Shown here piece after piece: positions 36,246 to 40,995 of a stretch of DNA of 40,995 nucleotides. Numbering within the stretch: position 1 is the first letter of the stretch; each line of letters opens with the position of its first letter. The DNA is taken from the NCBI GenBank assembly GCA_000996895.1, contig LCBB01000002.1, positions 91,596-132,590 of the forward strand, written 5' to 3'. A model generated the notes under the pieces. It worked only from the letters and a program-made list of their open reading frames with translations, searched no databases and was not told the origin of the DNA. Source of the stretch: a candidate division WWE3 bacterium GW2011_GWC2_41_23 (GTDB taxonomy: Bacteria > Patescibacteriota > WWE3 > UBA101185 > UBA10185). The position numbers and the translations under genes are program-made.

Positions 36246-36737
36246 CTAGTACTCGTCTACCGACACAACGACCTCTGCACCGCAACCGCATTGTTCTTCG
36301 TGGGATTGGATGAAACGTTTTTTTGTTTCTTCAACCTCAGATTCTAAAACACGCGGATCGTACTCGTACCAATTCGGGTTGTTGGGGCAGCCGGTGGAAA
36401 TACTGAAAGACTTGACCGGGGGCTCTTCATCGTCAGGGCAATTGCAGTAATTCTTGTCAAATCCACAAACAGGGCAGGTCTCACCATAAAGATCGGGTTC
36501 CTCTTCGTAGAAACTTTCCTCATCGAAGGAGGACTCCGAGTAAAATCCTTCGCTGCTTGTCCCGAGCTCCGCGGCCTGAAGGTCAATTTGCAACAAACGC
36601 CGTTCTTCGGCAGACATTCTTTTTTGATTAATAACTGAAGCGGTCATAAAATCTGACGCTTCGGGTGCTCTGCCTTCGCTGGCTGCAATATCAACCGCAT
36701 CTTCCAAAATCTGGTCGTGAACATTTTTATTGACCAC
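36246..36737 (-). CDS. Acidic Cys-rich protein, probable zinc binding
   Basis: The 163-residue protein is soluble, strongly acidic in the middle (EESFYEEEPD) and has seven cysteines: Cys88, Cys91, Cys98, Cys100 (CPVCGFDKNYCNC, knuckle-like), Cys117, and Cys150/Cys152 near the C-terminus. No family is recognised. The GTG start is set by AAGGAGG 6 nt upstream. It has the closest match to a consensus promoter in the window, a 12-bp palindrome over the start point, a good ribosome binding site and a strong terminator, so it is a highly expressed, regulated single gene. It lies next to the sortase/surface protein operon. Confidence 0.75.
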   Translation of the reverse strand: MVNKNVHDQILEDAVDIAASEGRAPEASDFMTASVINQKRMSAEERRLLQIDLQAAELGTSSEGFYSESSFDEESFYEEEPDLYGETCPVCGFDKNYCNCPDDEEPPVKSFSISTGCPNNPNWYEYDPRVLESEVEETKKRFIQSHEEQCGCGAEVVVSVDEY

Positions 36738-36829: not shown

Positions 36830-37510
36830 TTATTCCGTTGGGGCGATTTCAGCTACAACCACCAAGCGTCTTAGTGTTGTACCTGCGGGCCAGCAGGTCA
36901 TTAGCGTAACTTTTGCGGTTTCTGATTCAGGGTCCATGTAAGAAATCTCTTCCGCAGAAACTATTTTGGTTTCCGTTACGGAGTAAACAAATTTGCGGCG
37001 ATTAAAAATGAGGTAGATTTTGTCGCCTTTCTCCATTTTATTTAAAAGATAAAAGACAGAATTATATCTGTTCGCGTTTATAAAATTATCGGAAGAGTGG
37101 GCGAATAGGAAAACATTTCCAACCTGACCTGGTAATGCGGTACCTCTCGCGTGAGCCACACCTTGTGTTAGTGCTTTCTGGTAAGACTTGCTGTCTAAGG
37201 GGTTTACATCCTGTATTATCCTGGCATTTGCACCGATTTTAGGAACAACAATACTTAAATAGGGGTCGGCCGCAACTATGTAATCATTACCATTATTTTG
37301 GGGATCGGATGGGGTCAATTTTACCTCAGCGTCGGCTTTAGGAGGGCTAAGGCGATACTTTAACTCGTTAACTATATTTGGATAGAAGATAGCTAATAAA
37401 AGTACCAGAGACAGCCCTACAAAGCCGATGCCCAGCCTAAAAAAGGCTGGGCGCGGTTGGGCTTGGGTTATCCTCGTAATTAAATTATGCGTTCCTTTTT
37501 CTAAGTCCAT
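36830..37510 (-). CDS. Sortase
   Basis: This membrane transpeptidase cleaves LPxTG-type signals between Thr and Gly and joins the protein to a wall or pilin nucleophile. The 226 residues have one N-terminal membrane anchor (about residues 25-45) and the sortase beta-barrel with catalytic His138 (FLFAHSSD), Cys206 (LMTCWPAG) and Arg214 or Arg215 (TTLRRLVV). It resembles class D/E enzymes more than housekeeping SrtA, a tentative call. Its ATG overlaps the end of the surface protein gene by 26 nt, so enzyme and substrate are translationally coupled. The substrate signal LPATG is inside that upstream ORF. Confidence 0.94.
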   Translation of the reverse strand: MDLEKGTHNLITRITQAQPRPAFFRLGIGFVGLSLVLLLAIFYPNIVNELKYRLSPPKADAEVKLTPSDPQNNGNDYIVAADPYLSIVVPKIGANARIIQDVNPLDSKSYQKALTQGVAHARGTALPGQVGNVFLFAHSSDNFINANRYNSVFYLLNKMEKGDKIYLIFNRRKFVYSVTETKIVSAEEISYMDPESETAKVTLMTCWPAGTTLRRLVVVAEIAPTE

Positions 37511-40500
37511 TTATCGTTAATCCGCCTAGGAGCACTATAAGTGCTACCCATGTCCACGGGCTGGCAATTAGTTTTCCGAAGAATCCTTTTTCCTGTGTTT
37601 CCTCTTCCTGAACTTGTTCTCCCAAAACGCTTCCTTCTTCACCGTTACCTTCACCGATCTCTTCTTCAGAGGTTACAACTTCGGCGCCTTCGTTACCTTC
37701 TCCACCGATACCTATCGTCGAAGCTCCTCCGGTTGTGGATACGCCGGCTTCGTAAATTATTTCCTCTTTGTTTATTGTAATGGTCTTTGTGTCCACCAAT
37801 TCTTCAGCTTCCACATCCGAGCCGTTGCCCGCAGAATCGAAAGCTCTTACTGCAAAGTATTGTCGGTGTGCGCACTGGGCGCCGGCGACCTCTTCAGTAA
37901 ATGTTTTCTTTTCATCGGGACCCATATCAAAGGTTCTTATTCTAGAGTTGTTGTTAGCTGTGAATTCTTTGTCATCGGACATGTAGACTTCGACGTAATA
38001 GGTCTGGTCATCATTGGCTGTTTTGATTGTTATTTCGTATTTGCAGTCGGATTTTCTGTCTACTTCTATGTATTTGGGTTTGTCAGGGCCGTCGTTGTCG
38101 TAGGTGGTTGTAACTTCCTCTGAAGTAACAGGTCCCGTACCTTCCTCAGCCGATAGAGTAACCCAGAACTTGTAAGCCCCGGCATCTCCAAGGGCACCGT
38201 CGGTCACATCACAAACCTTCGTGTCTCCACCGGGATTTATCGAAATTGTGGAAAACTCGTGAGCCGATGAGTCAGGACCGTCCAAATAGCACTTAGCCGT
38301 CAAAGCTCTACCACCAAGTGTATCCATAGCCACAAATGTTAGCTGGAAAGGTTCGTTGTAATTACTTGCAGGATTTTCCAATCTTACAAGTAGGTAAGGA
38401 TCGGGTGTTTCAGCGTATACCTTTCCCGAGAATGCGAACACACCAAGTAAGAAAATCGGAAGCGCCAATATAGCCTTTTTTCTTCGTGACAACGCGATAA
38501 GTGAAATTCCTAATAACATAGTGGTTAGAACAGAAATTAATACTACGGTAGAAGCTCCGGTTGCAGGAAGACGCACCGTCGAAGTACCCAGCACTTCCTC
38601 AGTAATCTCCTTTTCATCTACTTCAGCATCCGCTGACGGGTCAGGAGTAGGAGTAACTATCTCTACGTCAGTTCCGACGAATCTGTCCGCAATATCGGCT
38701 AAATCGCCCGGATCTTCTGCGGTAGCAAAGACACTTCCCTCACTCTCGCTTGTATCCCAAATGTCTTTTCCTCTTGCCCATGCAATATCCTTATAAATAC
38801 CAGCTGTTACGCCCGACCCTATGACCGCGTCGTAAACTAAAGTGATAGTTTCACCGGCGACCATGTCACCAATTTCCCACATTCCGGGAGAAAGATAACC
38901 GGTTATTGTCACATCACCACTGATATTTCCCTGAGTGGATGAGTTAGCATCCCAGGTATCCGTATCAAAGTGGTTGAATTCGAAACCCTCTGAAAGTAAA
39001 TCTCTCACAACAACATCATTTACCGGAGAGTTTTCTGCTCTGACGGTAATCGTGAATCTAACAGTGTCCCCCGGGCTTTCCGGTGCGACACTATCATTAT
39101 CTTTGGTTATGAAAAGTTCGGGCATTTGCTGAACATTGTGGAAGTCGCAGATATTGTTACTCCCGCTTGTTAAGTTACTGAAATCACAGCTTGTGGGTCC
39201 GTTGGGTGTCCAGAAATCTCTTGATTCCTCAGTAACTGAAAATCCTGTGTTAGGACCGAGTCCTTCCCATGTATAACATCCGTTCTCACCGGTAGTCTGA
39301 GGATCTGTTAGCTCCCTATCCGTGGTTAAAGTCACTCCCCAACCTTGGGTGTATAAGGTACTTTGAATCCCGTTCTCCTCTGTATCTTGGAGAACCCCAC
39401 TATCTACATACTTACACGCAGTTATTGAGGCTAGCTTGAAGTTGCCGAAATTGTTATCTGATGAAGAGTATGCATCGTGCAAATCAACATCTATATAACC
39501 TACAACAGGAGCAGTTCGTGTCCATCCACTTTCTTGCACCTCTCTAATGCGGTATGTGTCAGAAACAAGGTTTGTGAGTAGATAGTTGCCATCTGCATCC
39601 GTGGTTACAGAAGTTTCTCCGGCATCCAAAATTCCATTGCCGTTTGTCTCTATGAAGATTGTCCAATCAGGCAATCCGGGTTCACCTGAATCTTTCTGTC
39701 CGTTTCCGTTTAGATCCTCATACTTCTGCCCTGAAATAGTACGGAATTGTGCATTTAAGAAATTTGCAGTCACGTCAGAACCCGATGTGATTGAAAAGTC
39801 TTGTTGGGTGACACTATTAGAAGAGTAGTACCCCGCGAGATCGGGATCGGTATAATCTTCTGCTACTCTATACTGCCCTACCGTCAATCCTGTGAATACA
39901 GTACAACCATTTTCTCCGGTTTCTTGAGTAGGCTGAGGTATCCAAGACGAATCTACTTGCTTAGACAAAATCATGGAAATATTATCTAATGCAAAATCCC
40001 CGTCTTCTTTTTGCCCGTTTCCGTTTAGATCTTCATACTTGCACGCGGTGATTTTACCTAGCTTGAAGTTTCCGAAGTCTTTATCCTCAACATCTCTGCC
40101 AAGATCTAATGAAACGTCGTGACATGCGCCATTGGGATAAGTTGCGACCCACGAAGTATCAGCTGTAGATTCACAAACTTGATAGTCTCCTATGTAATAA
40201 CCGCTAAACTCGTACTCGCCTTCAGAGTCAGTTGTTATAGAAGCAACTGCTACTCCACCAAGATTTTTAAGATCAATTGTCCAACCTGGAATTACCTGCT
40301 CACCTGCATCTTTAATACCGTCAGCGTTTGTGTCGTCCCATTTAATACCTGAGACGCTTCCCTGGTTCGGGGTGTTAGTAATAGTGCAGATTTCTCTGTC
40401 ACCATTTGTAACAGCGATGTTTTCGCAATTATCATAGGTAGTAGAGTATCTACTGTCTTCATTCTCAAGTACTGTGTATGTTCCCGGGGCAACCATTACT

Positions 40501-40995
40501 TCGTTACTCCCGTCAGATTCGAATTGATGATTTCCTGCACCTGATAAATCAAATTTAAACGAGAAGTCTGTCACACCCTTGTCGCCTAGTTGACCGTCAA
40601 CAATAATTTTATTGACTACTATTACTGCTGGCTGGTCGTTGTTGTTTATAGTACACGTTGCTGATCCTCCGTTTGGAATCACTACATCAGTGCAGTTATC
40701 ATAAGTGGCTGTGTAGCCGGGCACAGAAGGTTCTACAACACTGTAGGTACCAGCATCAACGGTAAGGTTATTCTGTCCGTCGAACTCAAAGGGAACTGCA
40801 GTGCCACTATTTACTGAGAAGGTGAAATCGTGTGCTGCCTTGGTCCCGCCATTGTTGTTGGTCATAGTCTTTTTTACTATCAGGGTGCCAGGTAAGTCAT
40901 CGTTTGTAATGGTACAGGTTTCGGTTTCACCGATTGAGACACCTACAGAGGTGCAGTTATCGTACGTTGTTGAGTAACCGGATACTGCAGGTTCT
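37485..40995 (-). CDS. Giant repetitive surface protein with internal LPATG sorting signal (N-terminus outside window)
   Basis: The frame is open to the right edge; 1169 residues are visible, numbered from 40994. Residues 1-210 are repeats of about 75 aa with YDNC...CTITN motifs. From about 212 to 600 come SdrD/Cna-B-like domains with Ca-binding loops such as DTNADGIKDAGE and DLNGNGQKDSGE, then a DUF11-like domain (LFITKDNDSVAPESPGDTVRF). A sorting signal follows: LPATG at 809-813, membrane helix, RRKK. The frame continues with a signal-peptide-like ILALPIFLLGVFAFSGKVYA, a 280-residue ectodomain, a Glu/Gly-rich stalk, and a final membrane helix with RKRNA. An in-frame TTG (38492) could start the second part separately. 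It is followed by the sortase. Confidence 0.9.
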   Translation of the reverse strand, partial: EPAVSGYSTTYDNCTSVGVSIGETETCTITNDDLPGTLIVKKTMTNNNGGTKAAHDFTFSVNSGTAVPFEFDGQNNLTVDAGTYSVVEPSVPGYTATYDNCTDVVIPNGGSATCTINNNDQPAVIVVNKIIVDGQLGDKGVTDFSFKFDLSGAGNHQFESDGSNEVMVAPGTYTVLENEDSRYSTTYDNCENIAVTNGDREICTITNTPNQGSVSGIKWDDTNADGIKDAGEQVIPGWTIDLKNLGGVAVASITTDSEGEYEFSGYYIGDYQVCESTADTSWVATYPNGACHDVSLDLGRDVEDKDFGNFKLGKITACKYEDLNGNGQKEDGDFALDNISMILSKQVDSSWIPQPTQETGENGCTVFTGLTVGQYRVAEDYTDPDLAGYYSSNSVTQQDFSITSGSDVTANFLNAQFRTISGQKYEDLNGNGQKDSGEPGLPDWTIFIETNGNGILDAGETSVTTDADGNYLLTNLVSDTYRIREVQESGWTRTAPVVGYIDVDLHDAYSSSDNNFGNFKLASITACKYVDSGVLQDTEENGIQSTLYTQGWGVTLTTDRELTDPQTTGENGCYTWEGLGPNTGFSVTEESRDFWTPNGPTSCDFSNLTSGSNNICDFHNVQQMPELFITKDNDSVAPESPGDTVRFTITVRAENSPVNDVVVRDLLSEGFEFNHFDTDTWDANSSTQGNISGDVTITGYLSPGMWEIGDMVAGETITLVYDAVIGSGVTAGIYKDIAWARGKDIWDTSESEGSVFATAEDPGDLADIADRFVGTDVEIVTPTPDPSADAEVDEKEITEEVLGTSTVRLPATGASTVVLISVLTTMLLGISLIALSRRKKAILALPIFLLGVFAFSGKVYAETPDPYLLVRLENPASNYNEPFQLTFVAMDTLGGRALTAKCYLDGPDSSAHEFSTISINPGGDTKVCDVTDGALGDAGAYKFWVTLSAEEGTGPVTSEEVTTTYDNDGPDKPKYIEVDRKSDCKYEITIKTANDDQTYYVEVYMSDDKEFTANNNSRIRTFDMGPDEKKTFTEEVAGAQCAHRQYFAVRAFDSAGNGSDVEAEELVDTKTITINKEEIIYEAGVSTTGGASTIGIGGEGNEGAEVVTSEEEIGEGNGEEGSVLGEQVQEEETQEKGFFGKLIASPWTWVALIVLLGGLTINGLRKRNA

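Follow-up and report, generated by a model that had tools for sequence, protein, structure and literature searches.

In Bradyrhizobium, the product of the fused gene fbcH, a cytochrome b/c1 precursor, carries an internal signal sequence at which signal peptidase cuts it. Sortase motifs that do not end a protein have also been described: the streptococcal IgA1 protease and ZmpB, ZmpC and ZmpD are N-terminal LPXTG proteins and accepted sortase substrates (PMC7939560; Bender and Weiser 2006, as listed in PMC7695701). Overlapping, translationally coupled gene pairs form a known class in which a co-located stop and start codon is used as a signature of coupling (PMC3711429), and one sortase family is present in more than half of the genomes of the candidate phyla radiation (PMC6744442). 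Here we analyse a locus that combines these elements in the candidate division WWE3 (Katanobacteria) bacterium GW2011_GWC2_41_23. The window, i.e. the whole stretch of DNA considered, comprises the final 40,995 bases of contig LCBB01000002.1 from a genome of 837 kb that is 97% complete. It contains an open reading frame (ORF) in which a giant repeat adhesin with an LPxTG sorting signal continues in frame into a second secreted protein with its own signal peptide and membrane anchor. We propose, with a probability of roughly 0.6, that this ORF encodes a surface polyprotein, which sortase would cut at the LPxTG motif and signal peptidase I at its internal signal peptide, yielding a 1:1 pair of proteins.

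Results

A sorting signal within a continuous reading frame

The frame of the fused ORF is free of stops from the contig end at 40994 down to the stop codon at 37485 on the minus strand. Its N-terminus lies beyond the contig end, and full-length relatives begin with a signal-peptide-like N-terminus. The adhesin half carries SdrD_B, SpaA and DUF11-like repeats; a DUF11-like stretch upstream of LPxTG is also found by eye in fused and split relatives. Like LPXTG sortase substrates, the ORF has an LPxTG motif with a hydrophobic helix and basic residues behind it. This internal signal passes the curated NCBIfam cut-off (TIGR01167, 16.5 bits against 15.9) and lies slightly below that of Pfam (PF00746, 18.1 against 20). 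Around 330 codons follow the RRKK tail, so the sorting signal is not C-terminal. The second signal peptide reads AILALPIFLLGVFAFSGKVYA followed by ETP and has a predicted signal peptidase I site between positions 38412 and 38411. The original prediction had described LPATG, helix, RRKK and a signal peptide ending VYA before ETP without an intervening stop, then a second ectodomain with its own C-terminal membrane anchor and a sortase gene overlapping the 3' end. Its positions for the junction match to the base, the anchor lies at 37491..37559, and the overlap amounts to 26 nt (Table 1).

Fused and split relatives across Patescibacteria

To place the fusion among its relatives, a profile of the second half was searched over the family, the class, the phylum (with partial samples) and two further classes, and 80 loci in Patescibacteria were kept after removal of fragments and unrelated matches. 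The two halves are fused in frame in 50 of the 80 loci and split into two genes in the other 30. The question raised by the original prediction, whether relatives carry the halves fused or separate, is thus answered with both states, and the outcome in which all relatives have two genes with a stop between them did not occur. Among the nearest relatives the same fusion is seen in four loci of three genomes; one of these loci is in CP006914, a single-contig genome. The junction sequences and lengths of the fused loci vary widely, which argues that the fusion is not a copied error. Two fused copies are found in each of two genomes (L002 and L005, L081 and L107; genomes G025 and G637).

The upstream gene of a split locus has a normal sorting-signal end (LPxTG, helix, basic tail); the second gene begins at this end or inside it, and half of the second-gene starts have a Shine-Dalgarno sequence. 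The pairs share the same phase in 25 of the 29 measured, and the overlap is exactly 8 nt in 15. Because of this common phase and the 8-nt overlap, a single 1-nt deletion in the tail would fuse a split pair; the fused state and the overlapping gene pair thus appear to be one frame-changing indel apart.

The history of the two states was followed on a tree of the second halves (79 rows), which is unrooted and thus does not fix the direction of change. By parsimony the state changes 7-9 times, of which 3-4 changes are forced by starred branches, on a tree of moderate support. A single origin of the fused state is rejected across all 79 rows (p-AU 1.4e-5) but not when only the main clade is taken (p-AU 0.12), which leaves the exact count of switches uncertain. 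Within WWE3, two split loci adjoin the fused clade on the tree. In that fused clade the distance between LPxTG and the AxA-type signal peptidase site has changed at least 8 times, each time by whole codons. Such retention of the frame would be expected only if continuity matters, the chance being about (1/3)^8 if lengths were free to change; loci with a broken frame would count as split, and the only two such loci in WWE3 sit outside the clade. Both the 50 fused loci and these in-frame length changes show that the single continuous frame is evolutionarily kept.

A proposed polyprotein with two predicted cleavage sites

In the proposed mechanism the whole ORF would be translated as one secreted, membrane-threaded polyprotein. 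From its N-terminal signal peptide the chain would run through the giant repeat adhesin, LPATG and helix 1 (out to in) to the cytoplasmic RRKK, and from there through the internal signal peptide (in to out) and the Ig/FN3-like ectodomain to helix 3 (out to in). Cleavage by signal peptidase I after VYA would leave the N-terminus of the second protein free and helix 3 as its anchor, and the linked sortase would cut LPAT-G and join the adhesin to an acceptor at the surface. Both cuts would leave behind a small helical hairpin and give as many adhesin molecules as membrane-anchored partners, made at the same place. The scheme predicts that both sites are cut, how the chain threads the membrane, that the two proteins arise 1:1 and that they act as partners. 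Separation of the two products would also need the signal peptidase I cut between VYA and ETP, which the original prediction did not stress.

The sequences themselves show that the frame is continuous and conserved, that the fusion alternates with overlapping gene pairs, and that the motifs are conserved and a sortase is linked. The catalytic His, Cys and Arg of the sortase are recognizable by eye (AHSS, TLMTCWP and RR). Among the named classes it scores best with class C (66.2 bits, cut-off 160), and only the general model TIGR01076 is passed. The host genome encodes four sortases and two S26 signal peptidases above the cut-off. A sortase gene lies directly downstream in 62 loci, and it is adjacent in 38 of the 38 fused loci that have both a strict LPxTG and downstream DNA. 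In 12 loci of a divergent clade a sortase gene is instead located 4.5-7 kb upstream on the same strand, before the giant gene. The loop between helix 1 and helix 2 is net positive in 50 of 50 fused loci, with a median length of 6 residues. The predicted hairpin topology, the internal signal peptidase site and the linked sortase are kept across deep divergence, as a polyprotein would require. Together with the 50 fused loci this supports the polyprotein put forward by the original prediction, with its cleavages and 1:1 ratio remaining at the level of prediction.

On balance we also favour, by a smaller degree, the wider view that Patescibacteria deliver a giant adhesin and an anchored partner 1:1 by means of a polyprotein cut by sortase and signal peptidase I, and that the locus has repeatedly switched between coupled overlapping genes and the polyprotein.

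Alternatives to the cleaved polyprotein

Several points weigh against this reading. Uncleaved internal signal anchors exist and, to our knowledge, signal peptidase I acting within a polyprotein is uncommon in bacteria. Nine fused loci without a strict LPxTG (LPAAG, LGAATG or LxxTG) are also without an adjacent downstream sortase, and in the divergent clade, where the fused loci carry LPAAG or LGAATG and no sortase gene follows directly downstream, sortase cleavage may not be needed. Under a laxer rule an AxA-type site follows helix 2 in 50 of 50 fused loci, a count that is inflated because the rule prefers Ala in a window. In the WWE3 fused loci, a start codon with a Shine-Dalgarno sequence occurs close to the junction in 7 of 12, against 2.9 in synonymous shuffles (P 0.004, an optimistic value owing to near-copies), and some WWE3 relatives may therefore also make the second protein separately.

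One alternative is a chain that is uncut or half-cut, in which the internal signal peptide stays uncleaved and the second ectodomain remains on a helical hairpin, with or without release of the adhesin by sortase. We consider this unlikely but the strongest of the alternatives. It would account for the loss of the strict LPxTG and of the adjacent sortase in some fused relatives, and both cleavages of the polyprotein are themselves predicted from sequence. An uncut anchor needs no AxA-type site, yet by a uniform rule such a site follows helix 2 in 47 of 50 fused loci, compared with 22 of 50 after helix 1. The invariable pairing of a strict LPxTG with an adjacent sortase in the assessable loci likewise argues against it. 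The divergent fused clade (L056, L057, L096, L097, L100, L101 and L103) carries LPAAG or LGAATG where others have LPxTG, and its sortase gene precedes the giant gene instead of following it; perhaps this sortase has another specificity, or sortase cleavage has been lost.

Nested starts appear less probable still. In this reading the second protein would be made on its own from an internal start (the TTG at 38492 in the window, an ATG with a Shine-Dalgarno sequence in some relatives), and a read-through fusion product might or might not be made as well. Every WWE3 fused locus has a start codon ahead of its basic stretch, the Shine-Dalgarno-like sites there exceed the shuffles as given above, and the same region serves as a genuine start in split relatives. 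On the other hand, 21 of the 50 fused loci have no ATG, GTG or TTG from five codons before the loop to the last basic residue, and no ATG is present in or directly before the loop in 36. In many of the start-less loci the sorting signal has a tail of KKRK-like residues that also form the n-region of the signal peptide, and with this double role the chain must be made whole there. Outside WWE3 a start with a Shine-Dalgarno sequence is found at the level of the shuffles (8 against 6.8, P 0.35). The start-less loci and this chance-level result rule out nested starts as a general explanation. Moreover, start codons differ even inside the genus, and nested starts would not require retention of the frame through the length changes described above. 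The original prediction had offered nested starts, with the TTG at 38492, as an alternative; nested starts are excluded for the 21 start-less loci and weak for the window, where the TTG is without a Shine-Dalgarno sequence, but may act as an added route in some WWE3 relatives. The fused chain would thus be the main product in the window, with nested starts perhaps adding product in some relatives.

An error in sequencing or assembly, or a single frameshift event joining two normal genes, is highly improbable even though an A6 run sits at the junction and a one-base phase separates split relatives from the fused state, since the 50 fused loci come from independent assemblies, several of them single-contig, with differing junction sequences and lengths, and refute it for the family. 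As originally predicted, a one-base change of the A6 run produces no prompt stop, stops arising only 30 codons (-1) or 22 codons (+1) past RRKK.

The second protein

An AlphaFold2 model of the second half, built from five sequences with a mean pLDDT of 64, gives two beta-sandwich domains, a stalk and a terminal helix (Table 1). No Pfam family, no solved structure by sequence and no protease family in the Pfam and NCBIfam scans matched the second half. A weak match was obtained between the second half (37485-38411, minus strand) and NCBIfam MXAN_2561, an MXYO-CTERM-anchored family (23.2 bits, cut-off 150). Foldseek returned only generic tandem Ig/FN3 proteins, e.g. RbmA, with low TM-scores, and the fold gives no function. 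Tandem Ig/FN3 domains on a stalk, as modelled, suggest a binding or scaffolding role of the partner protein. The weak profile matches L033-L037 were excluded from the survey as other large Ig/FN3 proteins; they come from the same taxonomic class, carry no sorting signal and have at their C-termini the FN3-stalk-helix plan seen in the second half.

Neighbouring genes

A DUF3048 gene (PF11258, PF17479; 34827-36149, minus strand) follows the sortase gene, and by eye L004, L115 and L116 show the same order; it may belong to a WWE3 operon. Between the two, at 36246-36737 on the minus strand, lies a small acidic ORF with the Cys-rich stretch CPVCGFDKNYCNC and no Pfam match. Upstream of one split locus (L120:245-2807, minus strand, genome G006) we noted by eye lookalikes of a SipW-type signal peptidase and of a TasA/CalY-like secreted protein.

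Table 1. Features of the fused locus, in positions of the window
Feature	Position	Strand	Basis
Fused ORF (repeat adhesin, sorting signal, second secreted protein)	37485..40994	-	open frame, 1169 codons in window
SdrD_B / SpaA-like prealbumin-fold repeat, one of several in adhesin half	40131..40343	-	PF17210 E 1.9e-28; NCBIfam SdrD-like
DUF11-type repeat directly before sorting signal	38973..39077	-	TIGR01451 E 4.3e-5, 23.4 bits, cut-off 24
LPATG sortase motif, internal to ORF	38556..38570	-	reads CTTCCTGCAACCGGA; TIGR01167 above cut-off, residues 809-840
Membrane helix 1 of sorting signal (out to in)	38487..38555	-	sequence
In-frame TTG, sole nested start candidate adjoining loop	38490..38492	-	no Shine-Dalgarno at 4-11 nt
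RRKK, sorting-signal tail and n-region of second signal peptide	38475..38486	-	loop survey of fused loci
A6 run at junction	38476..38481	-	sequence
Internal signal peptide, hydrophobic and c-region, ending VYA before E	38412..38474	-	sequence, comparison of fused loci
Second ectodomain, two beta-sandwich (Ig/FN3-like) domains	37797..38411	-	AlphaFold2, pLDDT mostly 65-93; Foldseek
Low-confidence acidic/Gly-rich stalk, probably disordered	37560..37793	-	AlphaFold2 residues 207-284, pLDDT <50
C-terminal membrane anchor (helix 3), basic residues at end	37491..37559	-	AlphaFold2 helix 285-307; sequence
Sortase gene	36830..37510	-	PF04203 E 3.8e-26; start overlaps fused ORF 3' end by 26 nt

Discussion

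Cell-to-cell attachment is poorly understood in Patescibacteria, a phylum in which the locus is common. If the proposed polyprotein is correct, sortase can act on a motif mid-way in a membrane-threaded chain and signal peptidase I can act within a bacterial polyprotein. What a fixed 1:1 ratio is worth is put to a natural test by loci that are overlapping genes in some genomes and fused in others, and gene callers should be aware that the continuous frame at this type of locus is real.

Every single part of the polyprotein design has a precedent. In the literature searched we found no bacterial surface polyproteins of this design, nor the combination of these parts, their spread over Patescibacteria and the alternation with split genes. 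With classical C-terminal LPXTG proteins of the MSCRAMM or SdrD-like type the window ORF shares the SdrD_B, SpaA and DUF11-type repeats, the LPATG-helix-basic tail and the linked sortase, but its sorting signal is not at the C-terminus. In this respect it resembles the IgA1 and Zmp proteases, where the sortase motif also stands within the chain and is followed by a large exported part rather than by the protein end (PMC7939560). There, however, the motif is near the N-terminus and precedes a protease, while in the window a giant adhesin comes before the motif and an unrelated, anchored Ig/FN3 protein with its own signal peptide after it. In N-terminal LPXTG zinc metalloproteases (M26) a protease domain follows the motif, whereas no protease family was matched in the second half of the window ORF, and, unlike those proteases, the window family has two-gene relatives.

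As in the bunyavirus Gn/Gc precursor, two anchored ectodomains are encoded in one chain, and there the internal signal peptide of the second is cut by signal peptidase (PMC5113920); the window ORF differs in being bacterial and in carrying a sortase motif on one partner, so that the resemblance is one of mechanism only and not of homology. The fbcH gene is also a bacterial fused gene with an internal signal sequence, but it encodes a respiratory enzyme and involves no sortase. Finally, the split relatives have the co-located stop and start of coupled overlapping gene pairs, from which the window family differs by an in-frame fusion of the two genes in many lineages.

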